Shown: positions 55,229-63,329 of the stretch, piece by piece | Layout: every line of letters starts with the position of its first letter | Numbering within the stretch: the first letter of the stretch is position 1 | DNA from: Natrarchaeobius oligotrophus | Lineage (GTDB): Archaea > Halobacteriota > Halobacteria > Halobacteriales > Natrialbaceae | Reading direction: 5' to 3' | NCBI RefSeq assembly: GCF_003841465.1 | Contig: NZ_REFZ01000003.1 | Location: forward strand, 186,001-250,000 | Length of the DNA stretch: 64,000 bases | Translations under genes and position numbers: made by a program | Notes under the pieces: generated by a model | What the model saw: only the letters and a program-made list of their open reading frames with translations | The model's database searches: none | Told to the model about the DNA's origin: nothing

Positions 55229-55330
55229 TCTATCCCGTCTCAAATACCGTTCGAACTAGACCGCGTCGAATAGACCACCAAACGAATCGAACATAGTAAG
55301 TGATAAATGCCAATATCCTGCCCTAATAAT

Positions 55331-55519
55331 ATGGATCAAGAGAGATTGAAAATACGACAGATTGTATTGGTCGCTCTTTCGGTAGTAGGTTTAGTATTCG
55401 TCATTGTTAACCCCGGCGTCACTATATTTATTCTGGCCCTATTACTCATCGTAAATTTATACACAATTAATTTGATTCTTAATATATCTAGTAGGGTTAG
55501 TGATTTGGAAGAGGCGTAA
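55331..55519 (+). CDS. Small two-helix membrane protein
   Basis: The 62-residue protein (MDQERLKIRQIVLVALSV...) has two hydrophobic segments (about 9-26 and 28-48) and a polar end (SRVSDLEEA). The ATG at 55331 is preferred to 55307 because it follows an AATAAT TATA-like context. Codon use is AT-richer than the core genome. No family recognised. Confidence 0.5.
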   Translation: MDQERLKIRQIVLVALSVVGLVFVIVNPGVTIFILALLLIVNLYTINLILNISSRVSDLEEA

Positions 55520-55619
55520 GAGATAATCGATGTATAGACCACATGACAGTGTGTGGCAAGAATGCTATCTCATAGCAAATAGACGGTAGTTAGAACTGTC
55601 TTTTTCTGTATAGAATGAC

Positions 55620-56132
55620 TCAAAGAGATTCCTGTGAAGAATATTTATTTCCTCGATAGTCCCGTTCAATCACGTCGATTGACCGAATGTGGTCCTCAAC
55701 AGTCATTTTGATCGTGTACCGGGCAGATGCAAGTGCCTCTCTACAGAGTCGACCTTGGAGACGCTCGCTAATCGTCATTGATTGGTTAGCCCAAGTTACA
55801 ATCACTCGGATAGTACTATCTGAATCGTCATACGTTAGCTCATCCACGATTGCTTTTTCGCAGTTTCTAGAACCAATAAACAGTGTTCCAGATATTTTGA
55901 TCTCCGGGCTGGTGTCCGCTTGATGCGTGATTTGTGGATTATCTTCGGGACCGATACCATTCCCCTCGAGATACCATCCCACGGGAGGGTTCTCTGTTTC
56001 GAAAGAGAATTCGCTAACCTGACTCGGGACGGTAATATTCATATCAGAACTGTATCTAACGTATCCGGCTGTTCCAATTGAAATCACTCCAGCACTAATA
56101 CCACTACTAGTTAGAAGCTTCCGCCTGTTCAT
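55620..56132 (-). CDS. Exported hypothetical protein
   Basis: The 170-residue protein begins MNRRKLLTSSGISAGVISIG, a twin-arginine signal with a short hydrophobic stretch, without a lipobox Cys. The mature part is Ser/Thr/Ile-rich with predicted beta structure (PPVGWYLEGNGIGPEDN, ISGTLFIGSRNCEKAIV, IRVIVTWANQSMTI). It is AT-richer than core genes, monocistronic, and probably acquired. No function recognised. Confidence 0.6.
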   Translation of the reverse strand: MNRRKLLTSSGISAGVISIGTAGYVRYSSDMNITVPSQVSEFSFETENPPVGWYLEGNGIGPEDNPQITHQADTSPEIKISGTLFIGSRNCEKAIVDELTYDDSDSTIRVIVTWANQSMTISERLQGRLCREALASARYTIKMTVEDHIRSIDVIERDYRGNKYSSQESL

Positions 56133-57575: not shown

Positions 57576-57731
57576 ACGACGACGTTCGTCGCTCCGAGAG
57601 TTAGTGGAGTCACTACATGTGCCGACGGCTCTCCGAACTGACCGGGACCACTCGAGTTCCGAACGGCGAGTGGCGTCCGACCCACGTTATTCCACATCAG
57701 GTGGGGATCCGACGGATCTGTTTGCGCGGGC

Positions 57732-57752
57732 CCGCTCGAGGCATCGTGTCTG
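57732..57752 (+). repeat. Left copy of a 21-bp direct repeat flanking the toxin-antitoxin genes
   Basis: ccgctcgaggcatcgtgtctg here and ccgctcgagggatcgtgtctg at 59104-59124 differ at one base; both are described by key bases only beyond 20. They lie about 200 bases outside each end of the RHH/PIN pair, in the same orientation, as expected if the module moved as a unit or replaced a duplicated segment. Confidence 0.6.
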
Positions 57753-57890
57753 TGGGTGGGTGTTGTTGGAAACGATCGGTGTCGGGATGATGAGTTGGAT
57801 CGGCATTCGTCGTTAGTGCGGTGCGTGATCCCGTCGTAACCACTGTTCAACCATCTGTACGGCAATTTCAAACGAGAGAGGGCGATCCTT

Positions 57891-57951
57891 GTGTGAAAAT
57901 CACACTTACTCGGCGAAACGGTTATCCGTCTATGTGCAGAACATGCACATA
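57891..57951. promoter_or_regulatory. Two palindromes before the toxin-antitoxin operon
   Basis: GTGTGA-AAA-TCACAC at 57891-57905 and TATGTGC-N7-GCACATA at 57931-57951 are both perfect. The second ends two bases before the antitoxin ATG. RHH antitoxins bind such repeated inverted sites to repress their own operon, so these are likely operators. Confidence 0.65.
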
Positions 57952-57953
57952 TC

Positions 57954-58322
57954 ATGAGCGCGAGCGACGATCCCCGGCGGGTGCATTTCCAGTCTCCCGA
58001 GTACCTCGTCGAGCGTCTCGATGCAGTCGCCGAACTTTTCGACACGGATCGGACTGATCTGCTCGTCGAGGCGATTCGCGACTACCTCGAGGAGACCGCC
58101 GATCGCGACACGTTCCAGGAATTGGTCGCGACGAAGTATTACGACGACCAACTCGAGTTCGAGACGGTCAAGCAACTGGTCGGCGCTGAAACCGCCCAGC
58201 GACTCCGACTTCTCAAGGCAGACCTCGAAGCTGAACCGGTGGATCTCGACGCACCTACCGACGTCGACATCTACGGTGACGACGCGATCGCGGTCGAACC
58301 CGACGATGCTGCCGATCGATGA
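57954..58322 (+). CDS. Ribbon-helix-helix antitoxin
   Basis: The 122-residue protein begins with a beta-strand/helix pair typical of RHH (CopG-like) regulators: RRVHFQSPEYLVERLDAVAEL then DRTDLLVEAIRDYL. The rest is a polar helix and acidic tail likely to wrap the toxin. Its TGA overlaps the toxin ATG (ATGA). It should both neutralise the toxin and repress the operon through the palindromes upstream. Confidence 0.82.
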   Translation: MSASDDPRRVHFQSPEYLVERLDAVAELFDTDRTDLLVEAIRDYLEETADRDTFQELVATKYYDDQLEFETVKQLVGAETAQRLRLLKADLEAEPVDLDAPTDVDIYGDDAIAVEPDDAADR

Positions 58323-58888
58323 GCGGGCCACGACTCCAGACCGTCGTCGCTGATACGAGCGCACTGGTCAGTGTGGCTGTTCCCCGTGCCGACGCGACGT
58401 ACGATACCGCAACGGCTCCAGACCCGTTCCAGTATCTGCTCACCTCGTGTGACGTCTCCGTTCCGTCCGAGGTCGTCGAGGAACTCCGTGACCTCACGCA
58501 GTATCAGGATATCCACGGCGCTGCAGCGACGAACGTCCTCGCCGCTCGAGCGCACTACACGGTGATCGATCCCTACGAACGGGACGATACGCCGGAGTCG
58601 CGGCCCACGTTCGGACTCGACGACGGTGAGACCGATGGGATCGTCCTCGCGAACGCACTGGAGGTCGACGGGTTCCTGACCGACGAGTTCGGCGGGACGA
58701 ACTTCGCGCTGATCCACGCCGTGTTACAGGGCCCGCGCATCGTCCCGACGCCGCGGCTCATCTGCGATTACGCCCGGAACGGGCATCTGAGCGTTAGTGC
58801 GGCTCGAGATCTGTTGACGACGATCGGCACTCACCGAAGCTGGGATAACAGTCCGTACGTGGTGCAGCTTCGGGAGCGACTCGAGTGA
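58319..58888 (+). CDS. PIN-domain toxin
   Basis: The 189-residue protein has the PIN acids in order: Asp in VVADTSALVSV near the N-terminus, Glu in PSEVVEELRDL, Asp residues in LDDGETDGIVLA and in LTDEFG. Such VapC-like ribonucleases cut tRNA or mRNA when released from antitoxin. It is somewhat longer than classic VapC (about 130), with extra C-terminal helices. It overlaps the RHH antitoxin gene by four bases. Confidence 0.82.
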   Translation: MSGPRLQTVVADTSALVSVAVPRADATYDTATAPDPFQYLLTSCDVSVPSEVVEELRDLTQYQDIHGAAATNVLAARAHYTVIDPYERDDTPESRPTFGLDDGETDGIVLANALEVDGFLTDEFGGTNFALIHAVLQGPRIVPTPRLICDYARNGHLSVSAARDLLTTIGTHRSWDNSPYVVQLRERLE

Positions 58889-59419
58889 CGTCTACCGTAG
58901 GCGATGCTGTGCGAAAGTTGCTATGCCGGGTTCTTCGCTTCTGTTGTTTGTGGGTAGTCAGTTATCAGGTGGTGTACTCGAGTCCGAGACGGTTTCTCGA
59001 TGGTCTCGGTTTGTGGTTCGGCTTCCCGGACCACGTGTTCGACCGACTCCTTGTTTGCGGGAGGGTCGCGTTCGGTGTACGATAAGACTGCATATGAGTA
59101 GGTCCGCTCGAGGGATCGTGTCTGCGAGTAGCTGTAGGCGGATAACGTAGATGTTGGAATGGTGACTAGGATAAGGCAGTGGGTGTGGCTAAGGCCAAAG
59201 TCACAAATCAACCGCCCCATCTCCGCATCGTCTCTAAGGGAAAGCGCTCAACAATTACAATGTCTCACCCCAGCCCCGTACGCAGGGTCCCAGTTAAACC
59301 ACATGAAATAATCCCCAACTAAGATTTGGAAATTGCCTGTGTGAACAACCTAGTCCCCATTGTTTCTGTAGTAAAGTCTCTGAGGGGAGATATAGGAAAA
59401 TACACTGTGTTATAAACAA
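58889..59419. other. 531-bp gene-poor region with repeat copy
   Basis: No supported gene. It carries the right copy of the 21-bp repeat (59104-59124). Short frames near 58885-59085 look like relics. Base composition turns strongly AT-rich towards 59419, at the 3' end of the TOPRIM gene. Confidence 0.5.
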
Positions 59420-59998
59420 TCAAGCATCATGTATTGTATTGATTATTTCTTTATGGATGTTGGGGTTATTATCGATATACTCTGAAATTTTCTGTATCTT
59501 TGTACTCTTGCTATCAGAATAATTTATTCCGGTAACATCCTCTAAACTATCATAGAAGGCTATTACCGGAAGATCTCTATTGTCTGTTCCAGCGATCTCC
59601 AGTTTGGAATCACAAATCACAATGTCTTGATTTGATATCTGATTCCTCGGATCTACTTTGACTTTATTTCCATACTGTTCGGTTAGCGAGTTGTTTAATT
59701 TACTGAAAAAAGAAGATATAGATTTTCCATCTAGATCTACTAATATGTATAATGAAAAGGAGGTAAACATTAGAGAATGGCTGCGGAATTTTTTAATCAA
59801 ATTCCCGTATCCTTCTTCAGACTTATACAATGTTTCGAAGCGATCATCTGCTAAATGCTCTCTTAGGCGTCTTGTCTGATTGTATGCTGCCTCTTCAGTT
59901 AGATATTTGTCATAATTACTCTCGATATCCCCCATCTTATGTGCTAATTCAAGAAAATACACGTCATGTTTCCCTTCACTAAATACAACTTTCCGCAT
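59420..59998 (-). CDS. TOPRIM-like protein, second gene of an ATPase/TOPRIM pair
   Basis: The 192-residue protein starts MRKVVFSEGKHDVYFLEL, where the Glu8-Gly motif and the later acid pair LYILVDLDGKS (Asp87, Asp89) form the TOPRIM pattern of OLD-family nucleases and of AriB/DUF4435 and DUF3226 proteins. The rest alternates strands and helices. Its ATG is one base after the TAA of the ATPase gene. Codon use is Lys/Ile/Asn-rich and unlike the chromosome. The likely role is a nuclease controlled by the ATPase partner; family membership is by pattern only. Confidence 0.72.
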   Translation of the reverse strand: MRKVVFSEGKHDVYFLELAHKMGDIESNYDKYLTEEAAYNQTRRLREHLADDRFETLYKSEEGYGNLIKKFRSHSLMFTSFSLYILVDLDGKSISSFFSKLNNSLTEQYGNKVKVDPRNQISNQDIVICDSKLEIAGTDNRDLPVIAFYDSLEDVTGINYSDSKSTKIQKISEYIDNNPNIHKEIINTIHDA

Positions 59999-59999
59999 T

Positions 60000-61316
60000 T
60001 TAGATCCCCCGAAGATCAACGTTCAGATCCTCAATTTCTTCTTCAGCACTTCTATAATCCAATGTTCGTGGAATAGGATCTGTCAGTTGTAACAATTGAA
60101 AGTGGTCTGAAAGAAAGACTTCTTCTTTTGATTTGAGATTGTCTGAGAAAAACCCTTCAATCATGTCTATATTGTGTGTAGTTATAAACAACTGGAGGTT
60201 CTTTTCCCGAACGACCTTTACTAATTGCGTTAATAAACTTTCAATATATCCTGGATGCATATGCACATCGGGTTCTTCAAGAAGTAGTACATTCCCTTCT
60301 CGCTCCGCAGATAATACTTCCCAGAGAATTCCAACAATAGTTCGAAACCCATCACCCATGAACGAGTATGGAATCTCGTATTTCTCGCTATCATCTCTAA
60401 AGACAAGCTTCTCAAAGGAAAAATCCTCAAGATTTTCCAGAATATTATTTTCAATCAGATAATCTTCTATATCGCTTGCTTTCACTGCTGCATTCTCCTG
60501 ACTCATGTCAACATCCTCTGCTTTCAAAAGAGGAGATTTTACTAAACGAACACCTTCAACAGGATCTGGCCTGTTACCCACAAAACGGTCAGAACCAAAT
60601 CTAGGGACCAACTGATTATGCAAACCACGCATTATGGCATGTTGTAACCTCTCTCGTTCTCTCGGATCCTCAAAGTCAAAACTTTCCTTTGAATTTTTTT
60701 CTTGCAGTTTCTCTTTCGATTCTGAAATAATGTGTTCGCGTATCTCTTCATAATACTCCCCAAGATGGATATACGAATACAACTCCCCATCTATCTCCAG
60801 AACTATTGAATTGCTCCTTGTGCCAGAGATAGAAATATCCTCGGGCATCTCAGTGATAGTTTCAGTAAGAGCATCTTTCATATCTTCTTTAAATCCCTCT
60901 TCCTCAAAACTTTCATTATGTCTTATTCTAATCGGATAGTCTTCATTTGTCTCCAATATATCTTGGAGTGTATTAATGAATATATCGACAGATTCCTGCT
61001 CTCGAGGTTCTCTAAAGCCTATCTCACGGTGCTGTACCTCTGGGCTCTGACTTGTGAAATTACTATCAAGCGTCTGCTGCTGCCGTGTATACTCTGCGCT
61101 AATTGTGGCAGACTTTCCATTGGTATGTACAACCTTGTCAAGATTCTTCGAGAAATTGTCAATATATTTTGGGTTGAAGATTATATTAATGGATTCCAAT
61201 AACGAAGTTTTCCCAGTGTTGTTCCTCCCAGTTATTAAATTCAACCTCTTTGGAGAGTAATCCAGCTCAGACACTCCTTTAAAATTCCTTATGTGGAGAT
61301 TAGTGATCTCGGTCAT
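60000..61316 (-). CDS. OLD/AAA_15-type ATPase, first gene of an ATPase/TOPRIM pair
   Basis: The 438-residue protein is an ABC/SMC-like ATPase: IRNFKGVSELDY at the N-terminus, Walker A GRNNTGKTS (30-38), a helical insert (about 60-300), the signature-like SFMGDGFRTIVG, Walker B NVLLLEEPDVHMHP (342-355) and the switch His in FITTHN (His381). This is the ATPase part of OLD nucleases and of AriA in PARIS, without a C-terminal TOPRIM, which is the separate next gene. It is strongly AT-rich. A gap of 362 bases upstream separates it from a PhiH1-repressor-like gene in the same orientation. Confidence 0.88.
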   Translation of the reverse strand: MTEITNLHIRNFKGVSELDYSPKRLNLITGRNNTGKTSLLESINIIFNPKYIDNFSKNLDKVVHTNGKSATISAEYTRQQQTLDSNFTSQSPEVQHREIGFREPREQESVDIFINTLQDILETNEDYPIRIRHNESFEEEGFKEDMKDALTETITEMPEDISISGTRSNSIVLEIDGELYSYIHLGEYYEEIREHIISESKEKLQEKNSKESFDFEDPRERERLQHAIMRGLHNQLVPRFGSDRFVGNRPDPVEGVRLVKSPLLKAEDVDMSQENAAVKASDIEDYLIENNILENLEDFSFEKLVFRDDSEKYEIPYSFMGDGFRTIVGILWEVLSAEREGNVLLLEEPDVHMHPGYIESLLTQLVKVVREKNLQLFITTHNIDMIEGFFSDNLKSKEEVFLSDHFQLLQLTDPIPRTLDYRSAEEEIEDLNVDLRGI

Positions 61317-61678
61317 TAGTTACATATCGTTTCAGGACGACTCGTGTTGAGTCCTTCGGTTGGTCGGGTTTCTATGAAGCCCTTCCCTCTGCCCCTGGGA
61401 TTATTATAGAACATTTTGGAAAGTAAATACAGTCCATCACTAATCCAACCTTCTTTAATCCCTCCCACCCCCAGGGGTTGCATATTGAGGAATTTGACTT
61501 CACCAATATGAACACAACTGGCCCGAATTTGTGTTCATAATCGAGACTTGTCGTTTTGATACCGGTAGCGATTCCTCAGATAATTTCTCCTGCAGAAACT
61601 GGTGTGATTCTAACGGTGGAAAACTCGAAATATAGAATCTGTGTTCACTACCGGATGATTCCGGTCTGAGTGGAGATT
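61317..61678. other. 362-bp AT-rich intergenic region with a long inverted repeat
   Basis: No gene. ATGAACACAA (61508-61517) and TTGTGTTCAT (61529-61538) are a perfect 10-bp inverted repeat around 11 bases; a third half-site, CTGTGTTCACT, is at 61635-61646 or close to it. It probably holds the ATPase/TOPRIM promoter and a regulator site. Confidence 0.55.
61508..61538. promoter_or_regulatory. 10-bp inverted repeat, candidate operator
   Basis: Arms ATGAACACAA and TTGTGTTCAT are exact complements. It lies between the ATPase start (61316) and the PhiH1-like regulator (3' end 61679), about 190 bases upstream of the ATPase gene. Confidence 0.55.
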
Positions 61679-61975
61679 CTACTCGGTATCCTCGAGCGGC
61701 TCGAGTTCGCTCGCGTCGAGTTCCTCGTCGAGATACGCTTCCCCGTCGTCAGTGATCGTGTAGAGTCCAGTAACAATCTGTTCGAGAAGCCCGTGGCGAG
61801 CCAATTTCTTGCACCTGCGACTAGCGTGGCTGCTGGACGGGCCACCGAACTCCTCGACCGCTGCAGGAGTGAGGTTCCCATGCTCGCGGAAGATCTCGAG
61901 GATCCGGTCGTCAACAGGCTGCATCCACTCCGCAGGTTGTCTGACCACGTTTTCAGTATCTCTGACCGTGCTCAT
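61679..61975 (-). CDS. PhiH1-repressor-like winged-helix protein
   Basis: The 98-residue protein has a single winged helix: EWMQPVDDRILEIFREHGNL, TPAAVEEFGGPSSSHASRRC and KKLARHGLLEQIVTGLYTITD, then an acidic tail. It resembles the repressor family named after haloarchaeal virus PhiH1, common in proviruses and plasmids. It is upstream of and co-directional with the ATPase/TOPRIM pair. The ATG at 61973-61975 is used; the longer frame to 62188 overlaps structured DNA. Confidence 0.78.
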   Translation of the reverse strand: MSTVRDTENVVRQPAEWMQPVDDRILEIFREHGNLTPAAVEEFGGPSSSHASRRCKKLARHGLLEQIVTGLYTITDDGEAYLDEELDASELEPLEDTE

Positions 61976-62453: not shown

Positions 62454-62635
62454 CCCGCGGCGGCTATACATACCACCGACCAACCAACCGCCTGTCGAAC
62501 CGCCGCCGGACACTCGAGCCCCCCAACCCCACCACCAAACCCGACAACCCCACCACCAAATCCGACAACCCCACCACCAAACCCGACACCCCCACCACTG
62601 CCAACCAACCCTCGCCGGGTGGTCACGATGGATAA
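62450..62635 (+). CDS. 61-residue protein with PTTKPDN repeats
   Basis: The protein starts MTRGGYTYHRPTNRLSNRRR, continues with three or four heptad repeats (NPTTKPD), and ends QPSPGGHDG. It is disordered and basic. The gene is linked to both neighbours by overlaps (ATGA with the upstream gene, and its stop overlaps the next ATG). Its function is unknown; nucleic acid binding is possible. Confidence 0.45.
   Translation: MTRGGYTYHRPTNRLSNRRRTLEPPNPTTKPDNPTTKSDNPTTKPDTPTTANQPSPGGHDG
62525..62587 (+). repeat. Three 21-bp tandem repeats
   Basis: Units begin at 62525, 62546 and 62567 (key sequence aaccccaccaccaaa, then cccgac or tccgac), followed by a decayed fourth unit. They encode the NPTTKPD heptads. 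Confidence 0.85.
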
Positions 62636-63329
62636 CCCCGACCGCACCCCGATCGGCGTCGACCTCGGCGAGTACAACCTCTACACCGCCTGTCCAGCCA
62701 CGATGCCGGACTCGAGGGGAGCCTGTACGATCTCCGGCGACGAGATTTGCGCTCGCCTGGACGAACTCCGCGCACAGGTCGCCGCACTGCTCGCTAGCGC
62801 CTACGATCGCGACACGGTCGTCGCGTACGTGAGACAGTGTCGTAACGAGTTGCTCGAGGCCCTCGAGGACGCGGCACGAGAGCTCTGCGAGTACGCGAGC
62901 GCCTACGACCAGCCCGTGCTCGTCACCGAGGACAGCCACTACGAGCCGGACCTGTGGGCGTGGCTCACCGATCCCGACGCTCACCGCGGGACGGCGTGGC
63001 TCCTCTCGATGGCCCATCTGCGCCTCCGAGCGGTCGCCGCCGAGTACGCCATCGAGGTCACGGCGGTGCCCGAAGCCTACTCCTCACAGGAGTGTCACGG
63101 CTGTGGCGTCATCGGCGACCGACCGGTCGACAAGACGCTCCGCTGTCCCAACCCGGACTGTCACGTCGACGTGGTCCACGCGGATTACAACGCCGCGAAG
63201 GTCCTCGCACAGCGGTACTACCCCGGTCAGCGGTGTGCATACCGATCCCCACTCCCGGTCACGACGGCCGAGCGTCCGGCACTCGTCGCCGACGGCGGGC
63301 CACCACAGTCGCCACGGGAGGATGCGTAA
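62628..63329 (+). CDS. RuvC-only TnpB-like nuclease-domain protein
   Basis: The 233-residue protein has the split RuvC fold and zinc ribbon of TnpB: RuvC-I Asp in IGVDLGEYNLYTA, RuvC-II Glu in VLVTEDSHYEPD, zinc-finger cysteines in ECHGCG and LRCPNPDCHVDV, and RuvC-III Asp in HADYNAAKVLA. The usual N-terminal half of TnpB (wedge/REC, about 150-200 residues) is missing: RuvC-I begins at residue 8. All catalytic acids are kept. Its ATG overlaps the upstream stop codon and its own stop overlaps a 40-residue ORF, so it sits in a coupled operon. It may be a domesticated TnpB relative rather than part of a working transposon. Confidence 0.8.
   Translation: MDNPDRTPIGVDLGEYNLYTACPATMPDSRGACTISGDEICARLDELRAQVAALLASAYDRDTVVAYVRQCRNELLEALEDAARELCEYASAYDQPVLVTEDSHYEPDLWAWLTDPDAHRGTAWLLSMAHLRLRAVAAEYAIEVTAVPEAYSSQECHGCGVIGDRPVDKTLRCPNPDCHVDVVHADYNAAKVLAQRYYPGQRCAYRSPLPVTTAERPALVADGGPPQSPREDA

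Follow-up and report, generated by a model that had tools for sequence, protein, structure and literature searches.

The two genes at 59420-61316 of the window, the 64,000-nucleotide stretch of Natrarchaeobius oligotrophus DNA analysed here, encode an OLD-type ABC ATPase and a separate protein with a predicted TOPRIM fold. Judged by its sequence relationships, this pair belongs to the split OLD-ABC/TOPRIM dyads, within which it represents a haloarchaeal branch; the closest catalogued kind is PDC-M38/DUF3226. Its most probable function is that of a two-component, mobile anti-virus module. According to PMC12839542, this kind of dyad goes back to Aravind and colleagues, with PARIS coming later. 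The original prediction, that the pair may be a variant not described in archaea, was only partly right: dyads of this type are already known, and counts of PARIS have covered bacterial and archaeal genomes together. To the extent that this could be checked, it is the haloarchaeal branch that lacks a description, and the PDC-M38B models detect it only in part.

Both ORFs were found where they had been predicted, on the minus strand and 1 bp apart; the stop codon of the ATPase gene occupies 60000-60002, and the ATG of the TOPRIM gene starts at 59998. The features of the locus are listed below.

57651..57659, no strand: left 9-bp direct repeat CTCGAGTTC, marking one edge of the segment that the sister species lacks
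57954..58322, plus strand: RHH/RelB-like antitoxin-like gene with weak matches, a companion within the presence/absence segment and outside the dyad
58319..58888, plus strand: PIN-like toxin-like gene with a weak PDC-S70 match, overlapping the RHH-like ORF, also a companion outside the dyad
59420..59998, minus strand: TOPRIM-fold putative nuclease subunit, 192 aa, with the metal-ligand set E8, D12, D88, D90, E153
59999..59999, minus strand: 1-bp intergenic gap of the tightly packed two-gene operon
60000..61316, minus strand: ABC/AAA_15 (OLD-type) ATPase, 438 aa; its C-terminal tail DLRG(I) is invariant in the clade
61679..61975, minus strand: winged-helix regulator of 98 aa (MSTVRDTE...), on the strand of the ATPase gene and about 0.36 kb upstream of it
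61700..61708, no strand: right 9-bp direct repeat CTCGAGTTC, present as a single copy in the sister species

The winged-helix gene is a possible regulator of the pair, and its homologues stand before the ATPase gene at two other loci (L104 and L113), but its membership in the system is uncertain.

The ATPase contains Walker A (GRNNTGKT, residue 30), a signature-like GDGF (residue 321), Walker B (LLLEEP, residue 344), a switch His in TTHN (residue 379) and a C-terminal DLRG (residue 434). It matched Pfam AAA_15 with 99.8 bits, above the gathering score of 32.1, and AAA_21 with 76 bits, and the sequence and family scan of its 438 residues showed no TOPRIM domain. These data bear out the prediction of an OLD-type ABC ATPase with all four motifs and without the TOPRIM domain. 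The predicted structure was an ABC head with Z values of 17-18.7 to Rad50/SMC heads, and the top Foldseek matches were retron PtuA-type ATPases. The score against the PADLOC model PDC-M38A (PDLC04608; 85.1 bits, 1.8e-24) was unspecific, since AriA and AbiLi gave similar scores; AbiLi, with 83 bits, was among the best PADLOC matches. The DLRG tail was invariant in the haloarchaeal ATPases, and the last block of the model had a mean pLDDT of only 51. Because the tail is invariant yet poorly ordered, and the TOPRIM protein is the constant companion of the ATPase, DLRG may be a docking tail for the TOPRIM subunit.

The TOPRIM protein alone gave no match at a useful level in Pfam or NCBIfam or by phmmer against the PDB, and zero PADLOC match; only alignment-level scans gave family matches. 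Its AlphaFold2 model had a pLDDT of 92.3 and a pTM of 0.88. The best VIA match of this model was PH0156, which we take to be a DUF3226 protein (Z 8.7, 4.2 Å over 158 residues), and the second was the TOPRIM domain of B. pseudomallei OLD, 6nk8 (Z 8.4, 3.9 Å over 140). The lower matches, PARIS 8ux9_A (Z 6.5, 2.9 Å over 112 residues) and retron Eco2 (Z 6.1), fell within the range of the P-loop/Rossmann background, which reached Z 7.4. The VIA alignments were preferred to Foldseek, which alone was uninformative for this protein and ranked RecA-type noise over TOPRIM. As Z values of 8-9 are moderate and just over background, the predicted TOPRIM fold of the 192-aa protein rests on the VIA matches together with the invariant acids.

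Residues E8, G9, D12, K59, G63, D88, D90, F148, and E153 were invariant across 17 haloarchaeal relatives, and E8, G9, D12, D88, and D90 remained so in a set of 27 relatives that also covers more distant archaea. The protein carries the TOPRIM acid pattern, an invariant Glu followed by DxD, plus the metal-B acids. Of the acids named in the original prediction, Glu8 was right, while Asp87 and Asp89 were numbered one too low and are D88 and D90. In B. pseudomallei OLD, metal A is bound by E400, D455, and D457, and metal B by E404, T506, and E508 (PMC6755086). The order and spacing of E8-D12...D88-x-D90...E153 mirror those of OLD E400, E404, D455, D457, and E508. RNase M5 likewise has an Asp at the position of OLD E404. 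The VIA alignments start at model residue 1, which is paired with OLD residue 393 and with residue 19 of the PARIS chain, so that E8 would correspond to OLD E400 and AriB E26, provided that no gap intervenes after these first aligned residues. Mutation of E26 kills AriB (PMC12409363).

Of 391 genomes of the class that were searched, 16 had the TOPRIM protein, and these fell into 12 of 86 genera. The ATPase gene lay directly upstream of the TOPRIM gene at all 20 haloarchaeal loci and in all ten more distant archaeal relatives, several of which belong to one family (f23), and the intergenic gap in intact relatives ranged from -4 to +2 bp. The ATPases of these ten more distant relatives also end in DLRG. 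Comparison of the pair with its closest relative gave dN values of 0.25 and 0.22 with dS saturated; since the two-gene order is also kept in all relatives, the pair is not a chance association, and the sequence data indicate a conserved operon under purifying selection.

In the ATPase tree, the 25 haloarchaeal rows, which include one nanohaloarchaeal MAG, sat on one side of a branch supported at 100/99, and all bacterial rows sat on another branch. Profile-profile comparison joined the haloarchaeal TOPRIM proteins to those of other archaea with 98% probability, while the matches to bacterial M38B-type partners were marginal (65% and 45%). In most cases, the bacterial ATPase relatives from the GTDB genome scan preceded a TOPRIM-like gene of about 200 aa, and their tails, also those ahead of a TOPRIM-like gene, were mostly of the EFEVR/EIEVR type. 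Those tested were PDC-M38 or AbiL-type pairs, with AbiLi the best match for some.

PDC-M38 (PADLOC-DB), which consists of the ATPase M38A and the DUF3226-like TOPRIM protein M38B, has the same gene order as the present pair and similar protein sizes. However, the haloarchaeal ATPases sit on a branch of their own with full support, and their tail is LDLRG instead of the EFEVR/EIEVR of the bacterial pairs. The PDC-M38B models matched 13 of the 27 TOPRIM relatives (best 4e-07) but neither the protein in the window nor its nearest relatives; DUF3226 (Pfam PF11536) matched ten of the 27 (best 1.2e-11), the window's own protein not among them. The pair thus belongs to a widespread kind of candidate antiviral system, and PDC-M38 itself is only a predicted one. 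AbiL (AbiLi/AbiLii) resembles the pair in its ATPase, as AbiLi was among the best ATPase matches, but the haloarchaeal TOPRIM protein had no AbiLii match. OLD classes 1-3 and Gabija GajA share the ATPase architecture and the TOPRIM metal-ligand set; the difference is that OLD is a single chain, whereas here the ATPase and TOPRIM domains are split. A single-chain OLD nuclease was ruled out by the two ORFs, with a stop codon and 1 bp between them, and intact relatives are split too. Gabija was rejected as well, since within the window no helicase-sized, UvrD-like GajB gene lies downstream, where the next genes are the RHH-like and PIN-like ORFs on the other strand.

The GC content of the pair was 37.4%, in comparison with 61.3% in the remainder of the surrounding 20 kb. 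The predicted AT-richness was thus confirmed, but the recent transfer deduced from it was not: the pair was AT-richer than its surroundings at 18 of 18 loci (difference -0.085 to -0.317), and AT-richness is therefore a family trait and no proof of recent transfer. Better evidence of mobility comes from an exact presence/absence junction and from close copies across families. The sister species (G312) has no copy of the pair, and there the flanks of 57660-61699 are joined at a single CTCGAGTTC, while in the window a copy of this 9-mer flanks the 4.0-kb segment on either side. Tree branches of only 0.10 and 0.12 separated copies from two different families. The pair was absent from three congeners, the sister species included. 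As to the direction of the event, the C-terminus of the winged-helix regulator looks more natural in the window, which favours loss in the sister species, whereas a 9-bp target duplication would favour gain in the window.

The RHH-like and PIN-like genes ride in the same 4-kb segment. At 57954-58888 on the plus strand, they resemble a type II toxin-antitoxin module, and they are flanked by a 72-nt direct repeat (57729-57800 and 59101-59172, 72% identical). A larger variable island of about 13.7 kb, from about 57.2 kb to 70.9 kb (window-extended; L098 and L123), was absent from the congeners G119 and G160 and partly present, with other content, in the sister species. A TnpB/IS200-IS605-type C-terminal part (62619-63329, plus strand), with the zinc finger ECHGCG...CPNPDC and an apparently truncated N terminus, stands next to the 4-kb segment. 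In genus g64 (L101, L102, L114, L115), there were three matches per genome and the copies were GC-ameliorated; one copy was decaying: its TOPRIM gene contains an internal stop, and its ATPase frame is split.

The neighbours of the pair are raw observations from individual loci. At the closest relative (L099), an AspBHI/Mrr modification-dependent restriction enzyme adjoins the pair. A tyrosine integrase and a type I restriction-modification system, HsdM/HsdS (HsdS assigned by eye), were found at L113, integrases near the pair at L104 and L105, and two VapC-like genes with an antitoxin, VapBC-like by eye, at L107. At L111, an SMC-like ATPase (AAA_23) of 999 aa (L111:14089-17085) lies 2.7 kb from the pair and is possibly a further defence gene. 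However, other copies had housekeeping surroundings. In Halorussus and its kin (L108, L110, L112, L040), the pair lies between cofC and cofG in the same orientation (gene names by eye), two genes of F420 biosynthesis, and elsewhere it lies near Hel308 or, in a nanohaloarchaeal MAG, near ribonucleotide reductase (names by eye). The search for defence genes around the pair, which had been proposed as a check, gave a mixed answer, with restriction enzymes, integrases, and toxin-antitoxin genes at some loci and housekeeping genes at others.

The patchy distribution, the exact junction, and the defence-type neighbours lend partial support to the predicted defence system, and a mobile defence module is the probable identity of the pair. 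If OLD, Gabija, and PARIS are a guide, the ATPase would most likely restrain a two-metal TOPRIM nuclease and free it on sensing infection. We propose that ABC-type ATP sites mediate dimerisation of the ATPase, which would hold the TOPRIM subunit in a complex, probably via its C-terminal DLRG tail. A virus-induced change, which may be an anti-restriction protein, nucleotide depletion, or aberrant DNA, would alter the ATPase, and the TOPRIM subunit would then be activated or released. The putative nuclease would cut DNA or RNA by two-metal catalysis, and this cutting would stop viral replication or host growth.

Defence is held to be probable and not more than that because of the stable cofC-cofG placement in Halorussus and the cell-cycle role of Cran1, both of which would also suit a housekeeping or DNA-processing nuclease. 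Such an enzyme, a split counterpart of OLD/Cran1 or of RecF/Rad50-like repair proteins, would act in replication, repair, or the cell cycle. The ATPase resembles Rad50/SMC/RecF heads in fold, the cofC-cofG site recurs in several Halorussus genomes, one genus has GC-ameliorated copies, and the archaeal OLD protein Cran1 is essential and has a cell-cycle role rather than one in defence (PMC12796447). Cran1 (class 5 archaeal OLD, Sulfolobales) resembles the present pair as an archaeal ABC ATPase plus TOPRIM, but it is a single chain that is inherited vertically and is essential in Sulfolobales, whereas the pair in the window consists of two chains, is patchily distributed, and is mobile. We regard a housekeeping role as unlikely: the pair is confined to few genomes of the class, is absent from three congeners, occurs in broken copies, and has close copies across families, and essential genes seldom behave in this way.

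A module serving its own mobile element, by superinfection exclusion, inter-element competition, or provirus or integrative-element addiction, overlaps strongly with the defence reading. The integrases and winged-helix repressor-like genes at L104 and L113, the integrase at L105, and the presence/absence segment with its 9-bp direct repeat and toxin-antitoxin-like pair are consistent with it. However, tblastn against plasmid and phage records found no relatives, viral contigs searched with one degenerate pattern contained none, and many copies are chromosomal without an integrase, and we consider service to an element distinctly improbable as the main function.

The original prediction had classed the pair as a candidate split system of the OLD/PARIS type (PARIS being AriA/AriB, class 4 OLD), and here the split architecture held but membership did not. 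PARIS is triggered by an anti-restriction protein and cleaves tRNA. The likeness consists of adjacent ABC ATPase and TOPRIM genes in the same order, the two-metal acids, the mobile context, and the presence of 8ux9_A among the VIA matches. The published rule requires AAA_15 of at least 32 bits or AAA_21 of at least 27 bits, with an adjacent DUF4435 of at least 27 bits (PMC9122126); the ATPase scored well above both ATPase thresholds, but the TOPRIM protein had no DUF4435 match and is shorter (192 aa vs about 306 residues in 8ux9_A). A DUF4435 scan of the 27 TOPRIM relatives gave one weak match (E = 0.015), and among 194 haloarchaeal genomes DUF4435 was found in only one, in a protein that by eye resembles an ATPase-TOPRIM fusion. 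The PADLOC AriA matches were rejected as evidence for PARIS, being generic matches to an AAA_15-like ATPase; the AriA models have 373 and 304 positions, near the 374 of AAA_15 and the 304 of AAA_21, and their scores therefore say little. Strict membership is thus refuted, and a true PARIS system is extremely improbable.

The mobile anti-virus module remains the preferred reading. A bolder form of it, which we put forward tentatively and think doubtful, takes the pair as one of an archaeal class of split OLD systems that escapes both the PDC-M38B and the DUF4435 models. In this class, DLRG would dock the TOPRIM nuclease and release it on infection, and haloarchaea would, if this is true, have a native ATPase/TOPRIM immune system. 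Cran1, the first archaeal OLD-type enzyme to be characterised, acts in the cell cycle, and surveys of archaeal immunity use models that partly miss the haloarchaeal ATPase/TOPRIM branch. The pair is compact, with two genes whose active site and tail can be mutated, and it occurs in genetically tractable haloarchaea with cultured viruses. With this pair one could test directly whether split ATPase/TOPRIM dyads serve as immune systems in archaea and how their subunits couple.

A small AT-rich patch at 55307-56132 of the window (about 45% GC) lies apart from the 4-kb segment. Its ORFs encode a short membrane protein and a signal-peptide-like protein.
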